Shown: positions 1-61,126 of the stretch, piece after piece
How the letters are laid out: each line of letters begins with the position of its first letter
Numbering within the stretch: the first letter of the stretch is position 1
Assembly: GCF_024168645.1 (NCBI RefSeq)
Contig: NZ_JALJWF010000001.1
Coordinates: 6,389,501-6,453,500 of the forward strand
Origin: Pseudomonas sp. GGS8
GTDB lineage: Bacteria; Pseudomonadota; Gammaproteobacteria; Pseudomonadales; Pseudomonadaceae
Reading direction: 5' to 3'
DNA length: 64,000 nt
The notes under the pieces: model-generated
Databases searched by the model: none
Told to the model about the DNA's origin: nothing
What the model saw: the letters and a program-made list of their open reading frames with translations, nothing else
Position numbers and translations under genes: made by a program

Positions 1-263
1 ATGTTCATGGGGGGCATACCTCAAAAGAGTGTCATATCCTTTATAAAGTCATTCGCCCACGAGGGCTTGCTGTTGATCTAAATCTAATCAAGGCACAACC
101 GGCCTCCCGTTTTGTCTGACGACTCGCCCCCTCGGAGCGAACCACATTGCGCGAAATTGATCTGCATCAGATAGACGATGAACGCTCAATACACACTGGA
201 TGCGTCTGGCTCGCTCTCGCGACAGGCAACGCGAGTGAAAACGGCTTGCGCAGGAGCGCTGAC

Positions 264-1115
264 ATGTGCGGGAAGATCATGGTGTGTATCGGTGGCAGCG
301 TCGCGTTGCGGCTGCTGATCCGCGTCATGTTGGTGTGCGTCTGCGCACTGGCCTGGGGCGCGGACGGCGCCGCACAGAGCGCCGAACCACGCGTCACGAT
401 CCTCGTTTACCACCGGTTCTCGGACACGGCCGACGACTCGATGACCGTGCGCATGAGCACCTTCGAAACCCAGTTGCGCGTCCTGCACGAGCACGGTTAT
501 CACATTGTGTCGCTGCGCGAGGTGGTCGACTGGCTGCGTAATCCCGATGCGACATTAGCGTCGAAGCCGGTGGTGATCACCGTCGACGACGGGCATCGTT
601 CGGTGTTCGACAAACTGCTGCCCGTGGTGCTGCGCGAGCGTTTTCCGGTGACCCTGTTTATCTATCCATCGGCAATCTCGAACGCGTCCTATGCACTGAC
701 CTGGGAGCAATTGCGCACCCTGAAACAGACCGGACTCATCGACATCCAGTCGCATACGTACTGGCATCCCAATTTCAACGTCGAGCGCAGGCACCGCACA
801 CCGGCGGATTTCCAGCAATTCGTCCGTACCCAACTGCAAAAATCACGTCAACGCATCGAGTCGCAAACCGGTGCGCAGCAGGTCGACATGCTCGCGTGGC
901 CGTTCGGTATCTACGACGACGAGTTGATCGCACTCGCCTCCGACGAGGGTTACGCAGTGGCCTTCACACTAGACGCGCGCAAGGCCGATCGGCACGCGCG
1001 ACTACTCGCCCTGCCGCGCTTTCTGATGAGTGACGCCTACGGCGCACGGGCGTTCGCGCAGCTGCTCGGCGAACCGAACACTGCGCCGACACCCGCAGAG
1101 GGGAACCCGCGATGA
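264..1115 (+). CDS. Polysaccharide deacetylase family protein, secreted
   Basis: Carbohydrate esterase 4 / NodB-type deacetylase that probably removes acetyl groups from an envelope or extracellular polysaccharide. From the ATG at 264 (AGGAG at 252-256) the 283-residue protein begins with a hydrophobic signal or anchor segment (about residues 12-34). The metal-binding motifs are visible: TVDDGH with D108/D109, and SHTYWHP with H164 and H168. An in-frame TTG at 147 would add 39 unlikely residues. The stop overlaps the next start (ATGA at 1112-1115), so the two are translationally coupled. The substrate is unknown; the neighbours suggest a cell-wall or exopolysaccharide target. Confidence 0.85.
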   Translation: MCGKIMVCIGGSVALRLLIRVMLVCVCALAWGADGAAQSAEPRVTILVYHRFSDTADDSMTVRMSTFETQLRVLHEHGYHIVSLREVVDWLRNPDATLASKPVVITVDDGHRSVFDKLLPVVLRERFPVTLFIYPSAISNASYALTWEQLRTLKQTGLIDIQSHTYWHPNFNVERRHRTPADFQQFVRTQLQKSRQRIESQTGAQQVDMLAWPFGIYDDELIALASDEGYAVAFTLDARKADRHARLLALPRFLMSDAYGARAFAQLLGEPNTAPTPAEGNPR

Positions 1116-2383
1116 CCTTCATCCGCGCGCTGAGGCGCTATGCGATCCCGGCGCTACTCGCCGTCACTGCCCTGCTGACCGGGCGAGGCGCACTGGCCGT
1201 CACCGGTGTGGTGCTCGACTCGAGCACGCAGAACCCGCTCGCCGACGCAATCATCACGACATCGGCCGGCGTGATGCGTACCGACGAAAACGGACGGTTC
1301 GAGACGGCCGAGGCAGTCGAGAGTGTCGCCGCCCGCGCCCCTGGGTATTTGCGCACCGAGGCCAAAGTGGGCGACGACACGTCCGTGACGCTCGCACTGA
1401 CCCCGTTTCGCCCCAAAGCGGTCTATCTGTCGGTGTTCGGCGTGACCAGTTCGACCCTGCGCAACAACGTTGTCAGCCTTACGGAAAACACCGAGATCAA
1501 TGCATTGGTGATCGACGTCAAGGGTGACCGTGGCCTGACGCCCTATCGCAGTGTGGCGCGCGAGACGATCGGCGCCGCAGCCCATCTGACTACACGGGCA
1601 CCTCAGATGCGCGACTTTCCGGCGTTGCTTGCCAAGCTGCATGCCCAACACCTGTACCTGATCGCACGCATCGTGGTGTTCAAGGACGATCCACTTGCCG
1701 ATGCTCATCCGCAGTGGAGCGTGCACACCGCCGATGGCCAGCCGTGGCGGGATCTCGAAAAGCTGCAATGGATGGATCCGTTTTCGCACGAGGTCTGGCA
1801 GCACAATCTCGATATCGCCGAGGAGGCCGCGCGGATGGGTTTCGACGAGATTCAGTTCGACTATGTGCGTTTTCCCGACAAGAGTGGGCTACGCTTTGCC
1901 CTCCCCAACAACCGCGCCAACCGGACGGCGGCGATCATCGGCTTTCTGCAGGCCGCACACGCGCGGCTCGCGCCCTACAACGTGTTCATCTCCGCAGACA
2001 TCTTCGGCTACGTCTGCTGGAACCTCGACGATACGGCGATCGGGCAACAAATCGAACTGCTGGGCGCGGAGCTCGACTACATTTCTCCGATGTTGTACCC
2101 GTCCGGTTTCACATGGGGGCTGCCGGGCTTTACCAACCCGACAGCCGACCCCGACCAGATTGTCAGGCGTACCCTGACTGAGGCGATGAAGCGCACCCAT
2201 CTGCCGGGCGTGCGCTTTCGTCCTTGGCTCCAGGCCTTTCGCGACTATGCCTTCGATCGTCGCCTGTTTGACGCCGCCGCGATCAGTGCGCAGGTTAACG
2301 CCGCCAATGCAGCCGGCACCGATGGATGGATGTTATGGAACCCACGCAATCACTACGATGCCGCCGATCTGCCACAGCGCTGA
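1112..2383 (+). CDS. DUF4015 putative glycoside hydrolase with carboxypeptidase-regulatory-like domain
   Basis: A secreted protein of 423 residues with a signal peptide (about 1-29, ending near GALA), then a small beta-sandwich of the carboxypeptidase-regulatory type (about 30-95, with GVVLDSSTQNPLADA and TDENGRF), then a DUF4015 TIM-barrel glycosidase-like domain (about 105-420, with VIDVKGDRG, EIQFDYVRFP and YISPMLYPSGF). Family members are predicted glycosidases but the reaction is not established. It overlaps the deacetylase upstream by 4 bases and the next gene by up to 58, so the three are one operon. The deacetylase-plus-glycosidase pairing suggests stepwise attack on an N-acetylated glycan; that is inference. 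Confidence 0.8.
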   Translation: MTFIRALRRYAIPALLAVTALLTGRGALAVTGVVLDSSTQNPLADAIITTSAGVMRTDENGRFETAEAVESVAARAPGYLRTEAKVGDDTSVTLALTPFRPKAVYLSVFGVTSSTLRNNVVSLTENTEINALVIDVKGDRGLTPYRSVARETIGAAAHLTTRAPQMRDFPALLAKLHAQHLYLIARIVVFKDDPLADAHPQWSVHTADGQPWRDLEKLQWMDPFSHEVWQHNLDIAEEAARMGFDEIQFDYVRFPDKSGLRFALPNNRANRTAAIIGFLQAAHARLAPYNVFISADIFGYVCWNLDDTAIGQQIELLGAELDYISPMLYPSGFTWGLPGFTNPTADPDQIVRRTLTEAMKRTHLPGVRFRPWLQAFRDYAFDRRLFDAAAISAQVNAANAAGTDGWMLWNPRNHYDAADLPQR

Positions 2384-4713
2384 AGCGCTGGGCGATGCTG
2401 CTTGGCCTGGCGATGGCGGCGCACATGGCCTGCGCCGCCGATCTCGACGCGACGACGCGCCTGCAAGCCACACAGATCGTCGAGGGCCAGATCGCTGCCG
2501 GACGCGTTCCGGGGGCGGTTGTCCTGATCGGTGACTCCACGCAGGTGTTCTATCGCCAGGCCTTTGGACAACGCACGACGACGCCCCCCCGCGAGCCGAT
2601 GACGCTGGACACCGAGTTCGATCTGGCATCGCTGACCAAGGTCGTCGCGACCACCACGGCCATCCTGCAACTGGCCGAAACGGGCCGCATCAACCTGGAC
2701 GCACCCGTTGCGCGGTATTGGCCGGCCTTTGGGTCGCACGACAAAGCAGCGGTGAAGGTGCGTGACCTGCTTGCGCACACGTCCGGACTGCGGCCAGATT
2801 TACCTGGGCGGCCAACCCGTGCGGGCCGGGAAGCTGTGTTAAGCGCCATCGCGGCGCAGCGGCTGCGCAACGCACCGGGTGCCCAAGTCATTTACAGTGA
2901 CCTGAATTTCGTGGTGCTCGGCGAGCTGGTCGAGCGCATCACCCACAGCCCGCTTGACGTCTATTGTCAGGCTCACATCTTCGGGCCGCTGGGTATGCGC
3001 GACACGGTTTTTCTGCCGGATGCCCAGCGAGCGATACGCAGCGCACCGACACTCGCCACCAAGGCCGGCACGCTCCGGGGGCGCGTGCATGATCCGACGG
3101 CGCAATGGATGGACGGCGTCTCGGGCAACGCCGGGCTGTTTTCCACGGCGGACGATCTCGCGCGTTTCGCACAGATGGTGTTGAACCAGGGGCGCGCAGG
3201 CAGCCGACAGATCCTGCGGCCGGCGAGCATCGCCGCCCTGGCGAGCGCCGCTTCGCCGTTCGACAGCGTGCCGTGGCGCGGCCTTGGCTGGGAACTGGCC
3301 GCACCGTTCGTGCCGAACCATGATCGTCTGCCGCCGATTGGCGTCATCGGCCATACCGGATACACCGGCACGGGGCTGTGGATTGATCTGGTGACCCGCC
3401 AATTCATCGTCATCCTGAGCAACCGGGTGTATCCCGATGACCGCGGTGATGCTCGCCCGCTTCGTGCGCAATTGCTTGCACTGATGGCCAGTCGCGGGGC
3501 AGCTGCAAGCGGCGCGCAAATCGGCCGGTTGCTGCCCTCCGCGTTGCCGGCGCTGCGTGCCGCCGATCGCCTGCCCACCTCGACGGGCCCGGTGCAGACA
3601 GGCATTGACGTGCTTGAGGCACAGCAATTTGCCCCGCTCGCCGGCATGCGCGTGGGCTTGATCACCAATCGCAGCGGATTCGATGCCAAAGGTCGACGCA
3701 CCGTCGACATCCTCGCCCACGCGCCAGGCATCAGGCTGGCGGCGCTGTTTTCGCCGGAACATGGGCTGAACATCGACGTGGACGAGCGGGTCGGTGACAC
3801 CCGCGACCCGGCGACGGGCCTCACCGTGCACAGTCTCTACGGCGCAACGCGGCGCTTCCCGGCCGGTTCGCTCAAAGGGCTGGATGCGCTGATCTTCGAT
3901 ATTCAGGACGCCGGCGTGCGCTTCTTCACCTACGAGACGACACTCGGCTACGCACTCGAAGCCGCCGCAGCACAAGGCATTGCGCTGTACGTACTGGACC
4001 GGCCCAACCCACTCGGCGCACAGCGCTTCGGCGGCCCGGTAATGGACAGTCGCCGCGAATCGTTTACCGGCTATTTCCCTGCACCGCTGCAGCCCGGCAT
4101 GACCGTCGGCGAGCTGGCGCGTCTATTCAACCGCAACAAGCACATTGGTGCGGATCTGCGTGTGGTGCCGATGCAGGGATACCGGCGCGCGATGACCTTT
4201 GCCGACACCGGGTTGGGATGGGTGCCGCTCTCGCCGAACCTGCGCACGCTCTCCCAGCTGGACCTGTACCCGGATATCGGTTTGCTCGAAGGTGCGAATC
4301 TGAGTGTGGGGCGCGGCACACCGCACCCGTTCGAGTGGGTTGGCGCACCGTGGATCGACGCAACCCGGCTCGCCAATGCGCTGAATGCGTTTGATGTCGG
4401 CGCGCATTTCGAGCCGATCGACTTCGTCCCCACCGAATCAAACTGGCACGGTCGGCTCTGCCATGGTGTGAGCATCACCCGCATCCAAACGCCTGCGCAA
4501 CGTCCCGTAGCCAGCCTGGGATTGACGCTACTCGCCACCCTGCACACGCTTTATCCCCACGTACTCGACCTGGTGGCGACCCGCGATTCGATCGGCTCGC
4601 AAAGCGTGTGGCAGGCGATTCGCGACGGCGCGACACCTGACACGGCGCAGGCACTCGACGCGGTGCCGCTTGCGCGCTTCGCACGGTTACGGCAAGAGAG
4701 CTTGCTGTATTGA
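2326..4713 (+). CDS. Serine beta-lactamase-like hydrolase fused to NamZ-type (DUF1343) exo-muramidase
   Basis: A two-domain exported protein of 795 residues. After a signal peptide (KRWAMLLGLAMAAHMACA) comes a class C beta-lactamase/DD-peptidase-like domain (about 45-395) with the SLTK nucleophile motif at S102-K105, a YSD motif at Y190 and a late HTG motif. Residues about 425-795 form a DUF1343 domain, the GH171 NamZ family, with NRSGF, SPEHGL and DIQDAGVRF. NamZ enzymes release N-acetylmuramic acid from the non-reducing end of peptidoglycan chains. The fusion joins a peptide- or ester-cleaving activity to a muramidase. Starts at 2326, 2335 and 2395 are all possible; the first two overlap the upstream gene. 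Confidence 0.85.
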   Translation: MDVMEPTQSLRCRRSATALKRWAMLLGLAMAAHMACAADLDATTRLQATQIVEGQIAAGRVPGAVVLIGDSTQVFYRQAFGQRTTTPPREPMTLDTEFDLASLTKVVATTTAILQLAETGRINLDAPVARYWPAFGSHDKAAVKVRDLLAHTSGLRPDLPGRPTRAGREAVLSAIAAQRLRNAPGAQVIYSDLNFVVLGELVERITHSPLDVYCQAHIFGPLGMRDTVFLPDAQRAIRSAPTLATKAGTLRGRVHDPTAQWMDGVSGNAGLFSTADDLARFAQMVLNQGRAGSRQILRPASIAALASAASPFDSVPWRGLGWELAAPFVPNHDRLPPIGVIGHTGYTGTGLWIDLVTRQFIVILSNRVYPDDRGDARPLRAQLLALMASRGAAASGAQIGRLLPSALPALRAADRLPTSTGPVQTGIDVLEAQQFAPLAGMRVGLITNRSGFDAKGRRTVDILAHAPGIRLAALFSPEHGLNIDVDERVGDTRDPATGLTVHSLYGATRRFPAGSLKGLDALIFDIQDAGVRFFTYETTLGYALEAAAAQGIALYVLDRPNPLGAQRFGGPVMDSRRESFTGYFPAPLQPGMTVGELARLFNRNKHIGADLRVVPMQGYRRAMTFADTGLGWVPLSPNLRTLSQLDLYPDIGLLEGANLSVGRGTPHPFEWVGAPWIDATRLANALNAFDVGAHFEPIDFVPTESNWHGRLCHGVSITRIQTPAQRPVASLGLTLLATLHTLYPHVLDLVATRDSIGSQSVWQAIRDGATPDTAQALDAVPLARFARLRQESLLY

Positions 4714-21327: not shown

Positions 21328-22689
21328 CTACACCAACCGCTCGATCTTCTGATGCTGCCAGACCATTTTGTAGTACAGGGTCTGCAGCATCAGCATGCCC
21401 AGATACGCCACCGGAAACGCCATCCACACCCCAGGCAGCCCGAAGCGCGTATCCAGCCAATAGGCCACCGGCAACTGCACCCCGACCACGCAAACGATCG
21501 ACACCGCCACCGGCACCAACACCGTGCCGCTGGCGCGCATGATGCCGCCGACAATCGCCTGAAAGCCAAACACCAGCAGGCTCCAGAGCATGATGTGCAA
21601 CAGGTGCTCCGCCATCGCCCGGGTGGAATCCTCCGTGAGGAACAACCCCAGCAACCAGTGCGACAGCAGATAACCCAACACCACCAAACCACCGGTCAGG
21701 CACACGTTGATCAACAATCCGGTGCGTAAAATCGCCCCCATGCGCTCAATGCGCCCTGCCCCGATCGCCTGCGCGCCAAGGATCGACGCCGTGATCGCAA
21801 TCGACAACGCCGGGAATTGCACGTAGTTGACGATCTGCGTCACCGCCCCGTACGCCGCCGTCGCCTGGGAACCGTGCTGGTTCACCAGTGCCAGAATCAC
21901 CAACTCCGACAACGACAGCACCACCATCTGCAACCCGGTCGGCAGCCCGATACGCAACACCTTGCCGAGGATGAGCATGTCGAGCCGCATCGCCGCAAAC
22001 ATCTCCCGATCCGGCGCCAACGGATGCCCCTTGCGAATCAACCGCCACGCCAACCACCCCATCGCCGACAAGTTACCCGCCAACCCCGCCCACGCCGCAC
22101 TCTGAATCCCCATCGGCGGCAACCCCAGCCACCCGAGAATCAACGCCGGCGTCAGCGCCAGCCCCACACACGTCGACACCACCAGCGCCAACAACGGCGA
22201 CAGCGTATCGCTCACCCCACGCAGCAACTGCGTGAACAACACAAACACCAACAGCGACGGCAAAATCCACATCATCACATGCGCATACGCCACCGCATCG
22301 TCCAGCACATCCCCCGGCGTGCCCAAACCCTGCAACGCCGGCCGGGCAAACACACTGCCCAACACCGCCGCCACCAACCCGATCATCGCCCCCAACAGCA
22401 ACGTTGAACCGGCGATGGCCTTCACCAGATGCGGCTCACGAGCGCCCCAGGCCTGGCCGATCAACACCCCAGCACCCGCACCGAGGCCAATGACCAGGGC
22501 GATGAAGAAGAACACCACGGGGAACATGCCCGATACCGCCGCTAACGCCTGGGTGCCAAGCAATTGGCCAATGTAGATGCTGTTGACGGTGCCGGACATG
22601 GCCTGGAGAAAGTTGGAGAGGACCATGGGGGCGAGGAACAGGAGGTAGGTTTGCCAGAGGGGGTGTTGGGGTTTGGCTGGGGTTTGCAT
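21328..22689 (-). CDS. MATE-family multidrug exporter
   Basis: Twelve-helix inner-membrane exporter of 453 residues, the usual MATE length, expected to exchange cations (Na+ or H+) for toxic organic compounds. The N-terminal half carries FLAPMVLSNFLQAMSGTVNSIYIGQLLG and VLIGQAWGA, typical of the family. The second half repeats the fold, with GAVTQIVNYVQFPAL and ILGAQAIGAGR. Transcribed alone, convergent with the SDR gene. It is the last typically Pseudomonas G+C-rich gene before the A+T-rich stretch from about 22740. Confidence 0.9.
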   Translation of the reverse strand: MQTPAKPQHPLWQTYLLFLAPMVLSNFLQAMSGTVNSIYIGQLLGTQALAAVSGMFPVVFFFIALVIGLGAGAGVLIGQAWGAREPHLVKAIAGSTLLLGAMIGLVAAVLGSVFARPALQGLGTPGDVLDDAVAYAHVMMWILPSLLVFVLFTQLLRGVSDTLSPLLALVVSTCVGLALTPALILGWLGLPPMGIQSAAWAGLAGNLSAMGWLAWRLIRKGHPLAPDREMFAAMRLDMLILGKVLRIGLPTGLQMVVLSLSELVILALVNQHGSQATAAYGAVTQIVNYVQFPALSIAITASILGAQAIGAGRIERMGAILRTGLLINVCLTGGLVVLGYLLSHWLLGLFLTEDSTRAMAEHLLHIMLWSLLVFGFQAIVGGIMRASGTVLVPVAVSIVCVVGVQLPVAYWLDTRFGLPGVWMAFPVAYLGMLMLQTLYYKMVWQHQKIERLV

Positions 22690-22875
22690 TGAGGGTCCGT
22701 CTCGGGTGGGAATGGGGCGCTATGTGATCGGGAGGATTGTAATGGGATTTGCGTCGGCATGAATAAATGGAAGCAGAAATACGCAGATACATCACTGAAA
22801 TCTCGATAGCGAAAAAGACGCCTACGCTTAATCCACACCTAGTCGAGTTACACAAACAACCAAAGGAAGGTATGC

Positions 22876-23937
22876 ATGCTTTATATACCATGTATGAGGG
22901 TAGGCCAGAACGATGTAAAAGCACTGATAAACTTGGAAGATACTCGTAAAGAATTGGTATCTCCTCTTCTCAACATGAGAGGCATAGAACGCCATCTTAA
23001 TGATTTCCTCACAGGCTGGGGTGACTACCCTTATTTGATGGATCTATCTAGATCTCCGCTTGACATTGCCAGCGACCTGATAGGTGAAAGAGACCTGCAC
23101 AACCCCAACAACCACTTCGAAAATAAGCGAAATTGGTTTGCGGAGGTGAAAGCAAAAAACAATTCATTGATACCAGTCGTATCCTGGCTGGATACTGACA
23201 ATACCCGAGACGTCATACAACTGGCAAATCTATTGCTAGGCAACTTCAACATCATTGCAATCAGGGTTGTTTGCCCCGCTGGAATAGTAGGCCCAAGCTG
23301 GGACAGGGCCATAAACATTCTAGACGCCATATCAGCCCCAGAAAAAATACTTGTCATTTTGGATTTTGGAGATAGGTCTCCAATATCCACTATCAATGGC
23401 GGCACTCTCGATCACATTCTATCCGCCTTAAAAAACTACGAAGTTCACGGCACAACCCTTATCAGTTCATCATTCCCAAGTCAAAAACCTCAATCAGGAA
23501 GCTCCAGCACCGCCATATGTCACGACATTGTTTGGCAAGCTGAGGCCAAACAATTAAATGGCTCAATAAATTTAATCTATGGCGACTATGCGGGCACCAG
23601 CCCTGGCGCCGCAGTAGAGTATATCCAAGGCATGGCCGTCATACCCTTTGCCAGCTATTACACACCTAATGAATGGTGGTTGAAACGTTTGGGAAGAGAT
23701 AAAGAATTCGAAAATTATGTTCAGCTAGCAAGAGATATTCGTCAATTACCCGACTACCACGGCGATGATTTTTGTTGGGCCACCAGAGAATATGGACGTA
23801 TCAGTCAAACCAGTGAGCGATATGGTAACAACGGAGTGTGGAACGGCCTTAGAGCCAACCAACATATTTGTGCGACACTCCAGTTCCTTCAGCACGAAGA
23901 TGATGGCGATAACGTCTCCATCGACGACATATTCTGA
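22876..23937 (+). CDS. Phage-T4-beta-like / sce7725-like protein (putative defence-associated)
   Basis: A 353-residue soluble protein resembling the T4 beta-protein family (Beta_protein, PF14350) and the sce7725 family. It opens with MLYIPCMRVGQNDVKAL, and later has VILDFGDRSP, SSSFPSQKP, LIYGDYAGTSPG, ASYYTPNEWWLKRLG and a C-terminal WNGLRANQHICATLQF. The fold looks like an alpha/beta barrel and no catalytic motif is obvious. AAGGAAGG precedes the ATG. The gene is clearly richer in A+T than its surroundings, suggesting transfer. Its 3' end overlaps by 49 bases the convergent sce7726-like gene. Families of this pair recur as neighbours and their function is undescribed. Confidence 0.75.
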   Translation: MLYIPCMRVGQNDVKALINLEDTRKELVSPLLNMRGIERHLNDFLTGWGDYPYLMDLSRSPLDIASDLIGERDLHNPNNHFENKRNWFAEVKAKNNSLIPVVSWLDTDNTRDVIQLANLLLGNFNIIAIRVVCPAGIVGPSWDRAINILDAISAPEKILVILDFGDRSPISTINGGTLDHILSALKNYEVHGTTLISSSFPSQKPQSGSSSTAICHDIVWQAEAKQLNGSINLIYGDYAGTSPGAAVEYIQGMAVIPFASYYTPNEWWLKRLGRDKEFENYVQLARDIRQLPDYHGDDFCWATREYGRISQTSERYGNNGVWNGLRANQHICATLQFLQHEDDGDNVSIDDIF

Positions 23938-24485
23938 CCTCCAGAGTAACGAATCTTAAGCCTGCTTAAAACCTTATCTCGAATAAGCTCCCACTCTAGC
24001 GCCTCGGCCACTTCGAGGCGCACCTCCTTTATCCTCATAGTATTTTTCGTTTCAAGTTTAAATTCTTTGCAAATCTCATCTAATTCCGACCGCCACAAAA
24101 GCCCTGTGAGAGTAAATTTATCGCGCAATTTATTGTGGGTTGCTTTCCTGACCACGGCGATAGTTCCAAGATCATCAACCACAAGAATTCCGACGCTCCG
24201 ATGAGTTACACCGAATGCTTTCTCTAGGTGTTTGGAATGACAGCAAAGCCAAACCTGGTCAAAACAACTGAGATACGCATCTTGCTGCCCTTGCCATCTG
24301 GACAAACTATCCGAGGCTGATTTTATTTCGAACGCCGTTAGCTGGCCGTTGGCATGCACAAGATCTGCGCGCCTTGCTTTGTTGATGAAGCAAAGCTCCC
24401 CAATGAAGACATCGCCCTCACCATGAGGCATGGTCTTGGCGACCCATTTTTTGAGCAGTTCGCGAATATGATCTGGATTGTGCAT
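23889..24485 (-). CDS. sce7726-family protein, PD-(D/E)xK nuclease-like
   Basis: A 198-residue protein from the ATG at 24485 (MHNPDHIRELL fits the usual family start; an ATG at 24530 is an alternative). It shows a restriction-endonuclease-like core: E30 in FIGELCF, D41 in RRADLV, E53-I-K55 in AFEIKS, and a downstream Q68-x2-Y71 like the RecB/Cas4 QxxxY element. These suggest a PD-(D/E)xK nuclease fold. A C-terminal helical region follows. Low G+C like its partner. It converges on the beta-like gene, with the two 3' ends overlapping 49 bases, so the transcripts are antisense there. Cleavage activity is inference. Confidence 0.75.
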   Translation of the reverse strand: MHNPDHIRELLKKWVAKTMPHGEGDVFIGELCFINKARRADLVHANGQLTAFEIKSASDSLSRWQGQQDAYLSCFDQVWLCCHSKHLEKAFGVTHRSVGILVVDDLGTIAVVRKATHNKLRDKFTLTGLLWRSELDEICKEFKLETKNTMRIKEVRLEVAEALEWELIRDKVLSRLKIRYSGGQNMSSMETLSPSSSC

Positions 24486-24629
24486 GGCGCAGGAGTATAG
24501 CTTCTCTCTTCTCTGAAACCTATGCAGCATATGATTCCAAAAGACGCAAGGAAGGGTATTTCCTACACCAAGCTCAGTCCCTGCACCTTGCCCGCCTAGC
24601 CCAATGATGTTTATAGTCCGCCCGTCGCC

Positions 24630-24859
24630 CAAATGGCGACCAGGTTTGGCGACCTGTTCGATCGGGTGCAAAAGCTCTGTGCTTTATTGCAGACGCTGTT
24701 GCACGCTCGCAAAGCTGTCTTTATGGCAGCTGTGCGCGGGAGACCTTCGGGTCTGCCGGTATTCCGATCCCGGTTCGCCAACCTGCGTACAGCTGTCACC
24801 CACTCGTTTGGCGACGATGGAGGAACAGTCAACCTTTGCATTGATCGGAGTTTTCAAAC
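24630..24859 (+). other. Structured leader-like element upstream of a small Pseudomonas gene
   Basis: A hairpin-rich stretch in front of the 24860 gene. It includes TTTGGCGACC repeats, a GCAAAAGC/GCTTTATTGC-like region, the exact UUCG-tetraloop hairpin AGACC-TTCG-GGTCT (24741-24754) and the pair TTCGCCAA/TTGGCGA near 24775 and 24810. I recall closely similar sequence before other short DUF3077/DUF6124-like genes in Pseudomonas, so it is probably a repeated genomic element rather than unique DNA. The promoter of the sce7726-like gene, on the other strand, should also lie between 24486 and 24650. Confidence 0.5.
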
Positions 24860-25132
24860 ATGGATAGATACATGCCCCTCACCGGAATCGACCTGATCCC
24901 GGCCTCCCTGCTCATCGACACCCAAGCCCCGCTCGACGTCCTGCAAGCCATGGCCGACTACCGCATCCGCACGGTCACGCAGGTGCTGGAAAACATCGCC
25001 TTCCGCGCCGAGATCGGTTGCGACACGGTGGTGTTGTCGGATTTTGCCAAACTGCTGGCCATACCGTTGCGCGATGGTTGTGATTTGATGGATGTGATCG
25101 GCAGACGCTTGCGGGCGCAGGCGGCGGAGTAA
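24860..25132 (+). CDS. Small Pseudomonas protein, DUF3077/DUF6124-like
   Basis: A 90-residue, largely helical protein without signal peptide or membrane segment; a second ATG lies at 24872. It resembles the short DUF3077-type proteins that occur in several copies per Pseudomonas genome (PLDVLQAMADYRIRTV, then two more helices). Function is unknown. The element upstream and the terminator right after the stop make a compact unit. Its last codons (RLRAQAAE) recur as a remnant near 31185, linking it to a repeated family in this window. Confidence 0.6.
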   Translation: MDRYMPLTGIDLIPASLLIDTQAPLDVLQAMADYRIRTVTQVLENIAFRAEIGCDTVVLSDFAKLLAIPLRDGCDLMDVIGRRLRAQAAE

Positions 25133-25249: not shown

Positions 25250-25601
25250 TTGGTAGCGTGTGTGCTGAAAAGTCTGATCCAGGCACCGGTTCCGGCGCAG
25301 GTCATCGACATGGGTATCCCAACCGCCGGGCTGCTGGCCCATGTGATGATCGCGAAGTTTGCCGACCACTTACCGCCCTATCGCCAGGAATCTATTTTTG
25401 GTCGAGCCGGTTTGGCCATCGCTCGCTCAACCTTGGCGCAATGGGTCGGCAAACGAGCGGGCGATCATGAGTTTAATCCAGTCGGTGCGGCTGAATGGGC
25501 ATGATCCGTATGCTTATTTGAAGAACGTACTCACGCGGCTGCCGACGCAGCTGGCGAGTGAAATCGACCAGTTGTTGCCGCATAAGTGGCAACCTGTTTA
25601 A
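25250..25601 (+). pseudogene. IS66-family transposase (TnpC) remnant
   Basis: The middle of an IS66 TnpC is readable at 25250-25453 (QAPVPAQVIDMGIP, AKFADHLPPYRQ, AIARSTLAQWVG). It then jumps frame directly to the TnpC C terminus at about 25452-25601 (IMSLIQSVRLNGHDPYAYL, RLPTQ, LLPHKW). The catalytic core between them and the N terminus are missing, so it is dead. No terminal inverted repeats were found. Confidence 0.85.
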
Positions 25602-57905: not shown

Positions 57906-58319
57906 ATGAAAATCACCCCGTACCTGATCTTCAACGGCGACTGCCAGGATGCCTTCAACTTCTACGCCAAAAACCTGCCAGGCCAGATCGAAGTCATGAT
58001 GACCTTCGGCGAAACCCCGGCTCGCGACCATGTGCCGGCGGACTGCCACAACCTGATCATTCATACGCGCCTGCTGGTCGGGGATCAGTCGATCATGGGG
58101 TCGGATACCACACCTGATCGCCCCAGCGCCGGCATGAGTGGTTGTTCGGTGTCGTTGAATGTCGACAGTGTGGTTGAGGCGCAGCGAGTGTTTGCGGGAT
58201 TGGCGCAAGGCGGGAGTATTCAAATGCCATTGGAGACGACGTTCTGGGCGGCGCGCTTCGGGATGCTGGTCGATCGGTTTGGCGTGTCATGGATGATTAA
58301 TTGCGAAAAGGACCGATGA
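57906..58319 (+). CDS. PhnB-like VOC-family protein
   Basis: A 137-residue protein with the PhnB/3-demethylubiquinone-methyltransferase-like VOC fold: MKITPYLIFNGDCQDAFNFYAK, DHVPADCHNLIIHTRLLVGDQSIMGSD and a final TTFWAARFGMLVDRFGVSWMIN. The exact reaction is not known. Divergent from the ABC gene, which starts 87 bases away. Confidence 0.88.
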   Translation: MKITPYLIFNGDCQDAFNFYAKNLPGQIEVMMTFGETPARDHVPADCHNLIIHTRLLVGDQSIMGSDTTPDRPSAGMSGCSVSLNVDSVVEAQRVFAGLAQGGSIQMPLETTFWAARFGMLVDRFGVSWMINCEKDR

Positions 58320-58919
58320 CGGGCCCATGACTAATACTTAAGTATAATGGCCCCCTGATATCAACTTTAGCTTTTTCTATTCAATAACCAGACAGAACAA
58401 CTACATCGTTCAAAAAATCAGCTCTTGACATAAAATATTACGAATACAATGCAAAAGGAGTCAATTAATATGCCCCCCCCGCTCTCATTCGCCCTAAAAA
58501 GAGGCAACAGTTGAACTGGCGCCTTTCGAGCGCGCACCTACACCGCCATAGAACACCGTGGAATATCCTTATAAATCAACTCCAGATATCAAAAATGCGG
58601 ACTTTCGCACAATTTATACGCAAGACTTCTCAGTGACGCCTCGTTCTGTAGCCTGATCTGCGGATCAGCCACGCTTCTGTGTTGTTCAAAGAAAAGTCAA
58701 CCGAAAGGCTCTAGTCCGATACCATGGCGCCCACCAACTAAGTCCGATATCAGAAAATCAAATTGGCTAAAGCCGACACAGTTGGCTATGTCATTGATCA
58801 GCTGAAACTACTGACGATGGAATGACACCTGTTGACAAGCTCAAAATGTTATAAAAAGTCAGATAACTTCAGTATTTTGTGTATTAAGATTGCAACGCCA
58901 GCACATATGAGTAATTTGC
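58320..58919. other. 600-base A+T-rich intergenic region
   Basis: No gene is supported here. It includes a hairpin CTGATC-TGCG-GATCAG (58653-58668) with no T-run, a repeated AGTCCGATA (58711 and 58740), and an A/T-rich stretch (58848-58900) just before the regulator trio that should hold its promoter. The low G+C matches the following genes. Confidence 0.5.
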
Positions 58920-59651
58920 ATGATGAGTACTGAGAGCAAAATCGAAAATAGCCAGAGGGGTATTCTCGCTATTGGGCGCACTTGGCGCTCGACAGAGAAA
59001 CTTCGGCAGTTATTTGTACCTAATCGCACGTATGTTTATACATTAGACTACACAAACCCGTCAAACTCAGATAGCGAAGTTCAAGCCCACGACGCCGTAC
59101 TAATTGATATTGAAAGCCCCTCCATTCTTAATGACTGTCTGGCACTCATCAAAAAGTTACGTGCAACTCCACTGGAACTGTCCATTATCGTTGCAATCAA
59201 TTTTCGTGCTCCGCAAACCAAAATTGAATGTTACTTGGCCGGCGCCGATCACTGTATCAATGTACCTAACGACCAGGATGAAAAAGCCAGGTTAATTTCA
59301 GAGCTGCTCGAAACACCTGAATGGCAGCCTGCCGTTAAGTTGACCTTGGACCAAACATGCCTGCACTTATACAACGATGAGTTCAAACTGGATCTGGCCT
59401 ATCAGGAAATGAAAGCATTGGATGCACTCATTAATGCAGAAGGTAATATTCTGCACCACGATTGCATGGCCGAATCCATGGGTTTGAATATCAAGCTCTA
59501 TGACTCACGTGTTCTGGAGAAATCCATAAGCCGCCTTCGAAACAAAATCAAAAAACACTTCGGCATTAACATCATTCACAGCGTTCGCGGTTATGGCTAT
59601 CGATTGCTTCGAGGGATCGTTTCAGTAAAGCAAACAAACTTTCATTCTTAA
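58920..59651 (+). CDS. Response-regulator-like winged-helix protein (OmpR type)
   Basis: A 243-residue protein. The N-terminal half (about 12-130) resembles a receiver but lacks the usual acidic pair near the start; the DAVLIDIES region could hold the phosphate site. The C-terminal half (about 140-235) is an OmpR/PhoB winged helix ending VLEKSISRLRNKIKKHF and HSVRGYGYRLL. It probably binds DNA without classical phosphorylation. It starts a three-gene set with an EAL-like protein and a second similar regulator, before a polysaccharide gene. Start codons at 58920 and 58923 are both possible. Confidence 0.75.
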   Translation: MMSTESKIENSQRGILAIGRTWRSTEKLRQLFVPNRTYVYTLDYTNPSNSDSEVQAHDAVLIDIESPSILNDCLALIKKLRATPLELSIIVAINFRAPQTKIECYLAGADHCINVPNDQDEKARLISELLETPEWQPAVKLTLDQTCLHLYNDEFKLDLAYQEMKALDALINAEGNILHHDCMAESMGLNIKLYDSRVLEKSISRLRNKIKKHFGINIIHSVRGYGYRLLRGIVSVKQTNFHS

Positions 59652-59663
59652 AGGGACTAAACA

Positions 59664-60419
59664 ATGGAGTCCAGCAGGCAATATACCGTGCAAGATAACT
59701 TCGCATTGGTTTTCTTCAGGCAATCAATTCTCAAACGAAACGATGAATTGTTCGGCAGTGAGATTTATGCCAAAGCGACCAAACAGCAGACACCTCTGAA
59801 CAAGGGGTATCAACCACTGCATCCCGATCACCCGCTGGCGATTTATCGTGAAGTACTGATGCGGATCCAATTAAATGCCCTTTCACAGATCGAGGCCACG
59901 TCGTCCCCATCCGTACAGATACCCAATAAATTATTCGTGACCATGAACCAATCCGCGTTATTGGATAAAGCGTTCATCCGAGAACTGAACGACGCTCAAA
60001 CGACACTCAAGAAGCATGAACAACAGTTAATCCCCAGCATTAACGGCGGTTCGCTCCTTTCGTTCAATCTCAAAGAAAAAAGAACCATTATCAATCACAT
60101 CCATTTATTGAAGGACAACGGGATCGAGATTGCTTTCGATGGCTATGACTTAAGCGATGACAGCGCTGAAAAACTGATCAGCCCGAAGCTGTTCGATTAC
60201 ATAAAAGTGGACCTGACCCGATCCAATTTCGACATCATGGTCGACAACAGCCAGGACTTTTTCAACAGATCTTACGACTGCCTGAGCGGCATGATCCATG
60301 ACAGCAAGATCAAGTTCATCGCGGACCGGGTCGAGCACAAAGCACTGCACACACTGGCCCGCAGCATGCCTTTCGATTTTTTCCAGGGGAGATATTACTC
60401 TCCGACCGAGGTTATTTAA
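59664..60419 (+). CDS. Degenerate EAL-domain protein
   Basis: A 251-residue protein of the EAL family, 12 bases after the regulator gene. Conserved marks remain: GSEIYAK (E33) for the EAL motif, TMNQSAL, KVDL (K181, D183), DRVEHKAL (E224) and FFQGRYYSP. But the DDFG motif reads DGYD (D159-D162), so one of the two metal aspartates is missing. It probably binds rather than cuts cyclic di-GMP, or is a protein-binding relay. It likely links the two DNA-binding proteins around it. Confidence 0.7.
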   Translation: MESSRQYTVQDNFALVFFRQSILKRNDELFGSEIYAKATKQQTPLNKGYQPLHPDHPLAIYREVLMRIQLNALSQIEATSSPSVQIPNKLFVTMNQSALLDKAFIRELNDAQTTLKKHEQQLIPSINGGSLLSFNLKEKRTIINHIHLLKDNGIEIAFDGYDLSDDSAEKLISPKLFDYIKVDLTRSNFDIMVDNSQDFFNRSYDCLSGMIHDSKIKFIADRVEHKALHTLARSMPFDFFQGRYYSPTEVI

Positions 60420-60457
60420 GCTTTAAAAATTTCACCAAACTAGGAAGGAGCCTTATT

Positions 60458-61126
60458 GTGAATACGTCAAACAACAGCTTTTTAATTTTCACCCGAGATC
60501 AACTGGCACGACAAGCAATAGAATCGCTTCTCGCACAACGCCTGCATTTATCTTTTGAAATCGAATCTGGCAAACTCAGCAGTGAACGCATCCGAAAGAA
60601 TCGATTCACGCACATCCTGCTCGACCAGGCCGATATCTCGCTGAGCGATGTCAGCTTTATCCGCAAGAATCAAAAAGATGCGGAAATCATACTCATAACT
60701 CCCAACTCGGAGCATTCAGAACTCCATCACTTCTCGCACTTCGGGGTTGATGGCTTTCTCAAAAAACCGGTGGCAGACGAAGAGTTCATCTCTGCCGTCA
60801 GCCGGGTTAAAGAGTCGCAGGGCAACCCCGACATCTGGTGGTTTAATGCCGACGACAGAACATTAATCAAGGAGGATATAACCATCCCATTGACCGGCAC
60901 CGAATCGTTAATGCTCACCCAACTGGTCATCAGTGATCGACGGGTCCTCAGCAAAAACGATCTTATTCTACGCATCGATAAAGATCCGGAGAATTACAGC
61001 GGCCTTGAAATGTGCTTGAGCCGGCTGCAGAAAAAATTCAAGACTGCCGCCAACGGAGAACGACTGATTCGCTCGGTCAGAAACCGTGGTTATTGCCTGG
61101 CGCAAAGGATAAGAATCGCTTACTGA
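60458..61126 (+). CDS. Response-regulator-like winged-helix protein (second)
   Basis: A 222-residue protein with a GTG start (60458) behind AGGAAGGAG. The receiver-like half (about 7-115) has HILLDQADISL and FGVDGFLKKPVADEEF, where KKP keeps the conserved lysine of receivers, but the N-terminal acidic pair is absent. The C-terminal half (about 130-220) is a winged helix ending IRSVRNRGYCLA. It looks related to the 58920 protein. Paired around an EAL-like gene, it suggests a heteromeric switch for polysaccharide genes. Confidence 0.75.
   Translation: MNTSNNSFLIFTRDQLARQAIESLLAQRLHLSFEIESGKLSSERIRKNRFTHILLDQADISLSDVSFIRKNQKDAEIILITPNSEHSELHHFSHFGVDGFLKKPVADEEFISAVSRVKESQGNPDIWWFNADDRTLIKEDITIPLTGTESLMLTQLVISDRRVLSKNDLILRIDKDPENYSGLEMCLSRLQKKFKTAANGERLIRSVRNRGYCLAQRIRIAY

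Follow-up and report, generated by a model that had tools for sequence, protein, structure and literature searches.

A convergent beta and sce7726 gene pair in Pseudomonas sp. GGS8 as a candidate gop-less form of the P4 gop-β-cII core

Two genes converge and overlap at their 3′ ends in the 64,000-nt stretch of Pseudomonas sp. GGS8 DNA analyzed here (the window). The initial annotation had described them as convergent ORFs with a 49-base 3′ overlap, and the positions proved exact. The features of the locus are as follows.

21328..22689, minus strand: MATE transporter gene, left flank
22705..24609, approximate edges: stretch of about 1.9 kb missing from the relative G021 (blastn of the window against L210)
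22876..23937, plus strand: beta gene, 353 aa, matching PF14350 and the PADLOC beta model
23889..24485, minus strand: sce7726 or cII-like gene, 198 aa, start codon ATG at 24485
23889..23937: 49-nt 3′-to-3′ overlap of beta and sce7726, encoding the tails of both proteins, acidic in Beta and modeled with low confidence in sce7726
24611..24660, plus strand: c4-a1b1 target, right of the pair
24719..24803, plus strand: C4 antisense RNA, right of the pair
25250..25601: IS66 fragments, right flank

A Shine-Dalgarno-like sequence, AAGGAAGG, lies immediately 5′ of the beta start at 22876. Both genes are A+T-rich, as first described, with a G+C content of 44.9% for beta and 46.9% for sce7726, whereas the remaining 1-kb bins of the 20–28 kb region have 53–63%, or 52% in the case of 24001–25000. 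Both genes are under purifying selection: in one group of 4 loci and another of 9, dN/dS is approximately 0.05–0.07 for each gene, the value for the window's own group of 4 being rough because dS exceeds 1 there. We conclude from these ratios that both ORFs are real genes. The MATE gene and the IS66 debris named as flanks were also found in place, and the neighbors of the window locus are MATE and MFS transporters, with no defense genes. In G021 about 175 nt separate the MATE flank from the c4-a1b1 element, and the stretch with the pair is missing. C4 antisense RNAs are of the kind that controls immunity in P1/P4-type phages. A specific link between the pair and the C4 RNA was rejected: the genome contains 34 C4 elements above the cut-off, and C4 was found at one of ten other pair loci (L092). 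The product of 24860–25132, a possible DUF3077-like protein, had no Pfam match. Elsewhere in the window there is a second A+T-rich stretch (58001–61000, 44–48% G+C), where two ORFs of response-regulator-type DNA-binding proteins flank an EAL-domain ORF and a sugar transferase gene adjoins.

The Beta protein belongs to PF14350 (Beta_protein, E 5.7e-28) and matches two PADLOC models, beta (1.3e-24) and PD-Lambda-2_C (4.5e-12). Its AF2 model (pLDDT 88, pTM 0.89) predicts a (β/α)8 TIM barrel followed by an acidic tail at the C-terminus, and the best structural matches of the model in the PDB are TIM barrels. Three invariant aspartates lie at strand ends of the modeled barrel, which suggests a ligand-binding or catalytic site. 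Beta had been likened to a phage T4 protein, but a T4 origin was rejected: of 50,697 phage records searched by tblastn with the window Beta, three matched, and all three are the satellite P4. Nor is the gene an sce7725 as first named, for neither the window Beta nor any other protein of its genome matched the sce7725 family model NF033831. Searches of PDB sequences with Beta and with sce7726 gave nothing below 0.001, the two best values being 0.0098 and 0.21.

The second gene matches NCBIfam NF033832 (sce7726) with 146 bits against a cut-off of 70, and the PADLOC model cll, for cII, at 2.1e-33. The nuclease motif that had been read from its translation was confirmed for E30, D41 and E53-x-K55, which are invariant across an alignment of 29 sequences; Q67 is invariant too, but the element given as Q-x2-Y is actually Q67-x3-Y71. 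The structural model has an α-β-β-β-α-β core, that of a predicted PD-(D/E)XK nuclease. With VIA-align, the model had restriction-enzyme-like structural matches, the best being 3dnx, a protein of unknown function, and further ones including the Holliday-junction resolvase Hjc and a repair endonuclease; Foldseek alone gave weak matches, the best with an E value of 0.021. Conserved residues, model and structural matches thus bear out the PD-(D/E)XK core that was proposed, and sce7726 is a predicted nuclease whose motif residues are kept, as expected of a working enzyme.

Both proteins have counterparts in satellite P4, where the order is gop (247–648, plus strand), beta (651–1718, plus strand) and cII (1746–2540, minus strand), and where cII is annotated as "sce7726 family protein". 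By tblastn the window Beta is 23% identical to P4 beta over 97% of the query, and the window sce7726 is 29% identical to P4 cII over 88% of the query. Two of the three parts of the PADLOC system gop_beta_cll (beta and cll) were matched at the window. The two loci are alike in having Beta and cII/sce7726 homologs in convergent, 3′-to-3′ order. They differ in that gop is present in P4 and was not found at the window, in that the P4 genes are separated by a 27-nt gap that holds most of the annotated cII terminator whereas the window genes overlap by 49 nt, in the length of cII (264 aa in P4, 198 aa for the window sce7726), and in that P4 is a satellite whereas the window pair occupies a chromosomal site. 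Protection against λ and P1 by gop-β-cII is reported by Rousset et al. 2022 (PMC9122126), who cite Ghisotti 1990 for the toxicity of Gop without β in P4.

The sole codirectional ORF between the MATE gene and beta encodes 60 aa (22767–22949). Inspected by eye, its product lacks any hydrophobic stretch and is not Gop-like; in two of three same-site relatives the frame contains stops, and in the third it lacks an ATG. The PADLOC gop model, which detects P4 Gop at 2.9e-71, reached at best a non-significant E of 0.119 across the 28 Pseudomonas genomes with a pair, and gave nothing even at E ≤ 1 in the window's own genome. At E ≤ 1 it had matches in 12/28 of these genomes and in 5/14 control genomes, which were taken as chance; since the model missed the Gop-like gene of G140, absence by model alone is not proof. 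That gene (locus L101) encodes a Gop-like two-helix protein directly 5′ of beta and was linked by pairwise comparison to L158 (E 1e-8). Pairwise comparison also ties P4 Gop to Gop-like proteins of Aquabacterium, Massilia and others, and a second Gop-like group (L175, L177, L179, L184) is weakly tied to the first.

Fifty-nine representatives at 70% identity were sorted by the gene coupled to the start of beta, which encodes an HExxH protein in 22, a small hydrophobic-helix protein in 10 and another ORF in 3, so that a third gene is coupled in 35/59; the remaining 24 are bare pairs, a class that depends on the thresholds (at least 100 aa, stop between −60 and +45 nt from the beta start) and may include missed genes. 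All eight HExxH proteins compared with Pfam are Peptidase_M78 (ImmA/IrrE-like), one just below the cut-off. Among the 28 Pseudomonas pairs, 11 have the HExxH gene, one has the Gop-like gene and 16, including the window, have none. The trees require at least 11–12 changes in third-gene class, compared with about 28 in shuffles, and we conclude that the class is inherited within clades with occasional swaps. Three Algoriphagus pairs (L181, L187, L189) have a coupled gene of about 261 aa 5′ of beta, without a Pfam match in the one tested (L181), which is possibly an unknown effector class. About 170 nt 5′ of the beta gene of one bare pair, on the other strand, there is a match to the ROSE_3 RNA thermometer (L096:5758-5825, minus strand).

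The initial annotation described the two families as recurring neighbors, and the genome survey agrees. Of 398 Pseudomonas genomes, 41 carry sce7726 and 37 carry Beta (at 39 places). There are 28 adjacent pairs, all 28 convergent, compared with approximately 3.8 genomes (41×37/398) expected to contain both by chance. The other 13 genomes with sce7726 are exactly the 13 with sce7725, where the two genes are always in tandem on the same strand; in this genus sce7726 was partnered by Beta or sce7725 in 41/41 genomes. In a scan of named-species genomes, 60/67 sce7726 loci have Beta immediately 3′ on the opposite strand, some Beta matches of the scan being weak at 28–32 bits (L159, L181, L187, L189, L197); three further loci have a tandem sce7725, and at four no partner was found (L136, L163, L196, L200). 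Record titles place convergent Beta genes in Acidobacteria, Roseivirga and Algoriphagus (Bacteroidota), Elusimicrobia, Verrucomicrobiaceae, Actinomycetota and Levilactobacillus. A class-wide draw of 369 genomes contained sce7726 in 8, the window's own included, and the seven others comprise four with convergent Beta and three with tandem sce7725. On plasmids, sce7726 was found in 20 of 72,556 records and a window-like Beta in one, P. putida NZ_CP061724, where the genes are convergent.

Pooled with P4, 93/93 Beta and sce7726 pairs are convergent, a count that includes genomes met twice. For clustering and trees, four of the 93 with incomplete Beta reads (L135, L139, L159, L197) were left out, and at 90, 70 and 50% Beta identity there are 70, 59 and 47 clusters, all convergent. 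Convergence had been described as a special feature, replacing an operon; for neighboring Beta and sce7726 it is the rule. The genes overlap in 55, 47 and 39 of these clusters, respectively, and are separated by a gap of 0–40 nt in 14, 12 and 7, with a full range from a 137-nt overlap to a 129-nt gap. What is kept across the pairs is their orientation and tightness, not one particular overlap. The Beta and sce7726 trees agree, with a Mantel r of 0.70 that was reached in 0 of 2000 permutations.

Convergence might be mere compact packing of a transferable cassette, without regulatory meaning, a reading to which we give a substantial chance, though one short of even. It is favored by the variable junction, in which no particular overlap is conserved, and by the terminators. 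A strong hairpin plus T-run lies within 200 nt on either strand in 18/59 representatives (on both strands in 3). Counted past the stops, strong terminators occur on the beta side in 12 and on the sce7726 side in 9 of the 59, compared with 2 and 2 in a control inside beta; this enrichment makes free read-through less likely for part of the family. Against packing stands the orientation itself, since packing alone would permit tandem or divergent forms and all 47 clusters at 50% identity are convergent, whereas sce7725 was in tandem with sce7726 in 13/13 cases in the genus survey.

At the window, a simple scan found no strong intrinsic terminator on either strand, as at 41/59 junctions in all, and overlapping transcription of the pair is plausible as judged from the sequence. 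A promoter scan found no more sites than in shuffled sequences. The overlapping 3′ ends may render the two mRNAs mutually antisense, in the manner of an excludon, and keep the pair low and balanced. According to excerpts of a published account (PMC7154746), convergent genes without a terminator are one route to excludon control. The window pair shares with excludons the convergent orientation and the lack of a clear intervening terminator; it differs in that its overlapping transcripts are putative and that the examples in the published excerpts are not phage-defense pairs. A bolder proposal makes the tail-to-tail arrangement the control mechanism. Through their overlapping 3′ ends, the genes of a TIM-barrel sensor and of a PD-(D/E)XK nuclease would restrain each other's mRNA, and a phage-induced change in transcription would unleash the nuclease or a toxin, the whole forming one effector-swapping superfamily. 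The triggers could be antitermination, host RNA decay or inhibition of RNase III. We regard this as rather unlikely; if true, gop-β-cII, the Beta-peptidase loci and, by homology, the sce7725-RES loci would be one superfamily.

Beta also occurs without a neighboring sce7726, in 11 of the 39 Pseudomonas places, and in three of these it stands alone. In the other eight (L106–L113) an ORF of about 400 aa with HExxH lies directly upstream, preceded by a small HigB-like ORF in seven, an arrangement labeled PD-λ-2-like by eye, not by model. Two genomes with such loci (G229, G299) carry a beta-sce7726 pair elsewhere. PD-λ-2 is similar to the window locus in that its component C is a Beta-family protein, and differs in having a HigB-like component A and an HTH-peptidase component B upstream of beta; no such ORF lies 5′ of 22876. 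Excerpts of Vassallo 2022 (PMC9519451) report that the Beta-family component C is dispensable for toxin neutralization and needed for defense, which fits a role of Beta as a sensor or regulator.

The loci with sce7726 and sce7725 share the identical sce7726 motif residues with the window and differ from it in that the genes are in tandem on the same strand and sce7726 is 235–303 aa long. From sequence comparison, sce7725 and Beta look remotely homologous. The diverse Beta alignment A4 matched sce7725 with an hhalign probability of 95.6%, the narrow Beta alignment A1 gave no match (0.6%), and Beta against sce7726, as a negative control, gave 0.2%. In a small set, a beta HMM detected 11/13 sce7725 proteins at E < 0.002, the best reversed control scoring 0.072; the reciprocal direction found 17/70 sequences, likewise in a small set, and one sce7725 touches PF14350 at 6.7e-4, below the PF14350 cut-off. 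In 8/13 loci (L114–L121) sce7725 is directly followed by a gene of about 340 aa with a Cys-rich N-terminus, and Pfam RES was found in 4/4 of these genes tested, which makes sce7726-sce7725-RES a candidate three-gene defense operon. Passing mentions in excerpted papers place RES, sce7725 and sce7726 together in a P. aeruginosa mobile element (PMC9394441) and RES with sce7726 in a Delftia island (PMC8248536), and in a further excerpt sce7726 and a "beta family protein" are listed together among the unknowns of strain-specific loci (PMC13414232).

Neighboring ORFs of the pair loci alone, 103 drawn from 158 with very long ones and some loci left out, were compared with PADLOC at 1e-10, and 61 families had matches among them. 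Among the matches listed (25 of the 61 families, one member each) were GajB many times, a DRT helicase-RT and a type IIG enzyme, as well as SoFic, PDC-S29 and PDC-S70. With Pfam, the 25 of 93 families listed for the same ORFs ranged from metabolic and transporter families to resolvase/integrase and MazG-like ones.

The pair lies at the same site in L091/L138 (one genome), L135, L137, L139 and L140, each with the identical 49-nt overlap, and L136 has the sce7726 gene there. In P. lini (L135) and P. fluorescens HK44 (L139) beta is split between reading frames while sce7726 is full-length; both are draft sequences, in which a split could be a sequencing error. In P. brassicacearum 48H11 (L136) beta is absent and sce7726 again full-length. 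A split or absent beta with full-length sce7726 is thus found at 3/7 same-site loci, from which we conclude that the two genes are not strictly dependent on each other. In beta's place, L136 has a 136-aa ORF (L136:6615-7025, minus strand), convergent to sce7726 and about 6 nt from it. The encoded protein has a hydrophobic stretch at its N-terminus and a SHOCT domain, and it weakly matches EAD11 (effector-associated domain); this ORF is possibly a partner replacement that preserves convergence.

We read the window pair as a gop-less, two-gene form of the beta-cII core of the P4 gop-β-cII anti-phage system, with a probability of about 0.5. The comparison of layouts and companions suggests that the constant part of gop-β-cII is the convergent beta-sce7726 pair, the toxin-like gene being exchangeable or absent. 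Beta, as a TIM barrel, would be the regulatory or sensing subunit and sce7726, as a predicted nuclease, the subunit acting on nucleic acid, and phage infection would turn on a putative Beta-sce7726 complex. Elsewhere the core would be joined by a toxin-like gene, encoding Gop or an ImmA/IrrE-type peptidase, or a RES-domain protein in the sce7725 branch. In the bare form the nuclease itself, with Beta, would most likely execute defense; it is the likely output here because the pair stands alone. The bare pair would probably have anti-phage activity. Weighing against this reading are the transporter neighbors of the window locus in place of defense genes, the weak Foldseek matches of sce7726 and the three same-site loci that keep sce7726 with a split or lost beta. 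The proposal of a new anti-phage or toxin module survives in its link to anti-phage and toxin-type systems and loses its newness, the pair being a gop-less relative of gop-β-cII.

The pair might instead be an orphan regulatory remnant or "immunity" pair that has lost its effector and restrains incoming relatives of that effector or P4-like elements. A third gene is coupled in 35/59 representatives and none was seen at the window, and the repeated changes of third-gene class (at least 11–12 on the trees) would suit such a loss. Bare pairs are common, however (24/59), the classes cluster on the trees, both genes have a dN/dS of 0.05–0.07 and the sce7726 motif residues are intact, and we consider a remnant unlikely.

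A toxin-antitoxin pair, with sce7726 as the toxic nuclease and Beta as its antidote, appears still less probable. The predicted nuclease fold of sce7726 and its near-obligate pairing with Beta or sce7725 (41/41 in the genus survey) speak for it. So does P4, where Gop is toxic without β according to the excerpted citation of Ghisotti 1990 (PMC9122126), but the known toxin there is Gop, not cII. Full-length sce7726 persists beside a split (L135, L139) or absent (L136) beta, at 3/7 same-site loci, which speaks against the plain nuclease-toxin and Beta-antitoxin first suggested. Toxin-antitoxin genes are normally co-transcribed, and this pair is convergent. Least probable of all, and very unlikely in our view, is a DNA repair or processing pair with no phage connection, for which the structural matches (3dnx of unknown function, Hjc, the repair endonuclease) can be cited and which fits poorly with a patchy distribution (41/398 Pseudomonas and 8/369 class-wide genomes), an empty site in the relative G021, presence in P4 and toxin-like companions.

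Beta and cII are already known to PADLOC as parts of gop_beta_cll; what appears new is that the convergent arrangement is so deeply conserved and that the pair occurs without gop. In the accessible text of the open-licence PMC literature (no preprints), no description of the bare pair or its convergence was found, nor of the TIM-barrel assignment or the homology between Beta and sce7725. The gop-β-cII system has been catalogued as one three-gene system of P4, and its convergent pair now appears as the constant part across several phyla. The pair would tie together gop-β-cII, PD-λ-2 (via Beta) and sce7726-sce7725-RES (via sce7726 and a remote Beta homolog), and the predicted folds of both core proteins come with conserved residues that are open to mutation. 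Convergence kept throughout 47 diverged clusters is unusual for a gene pair, and a regulatory role of the 3′ overlap is directly testable.
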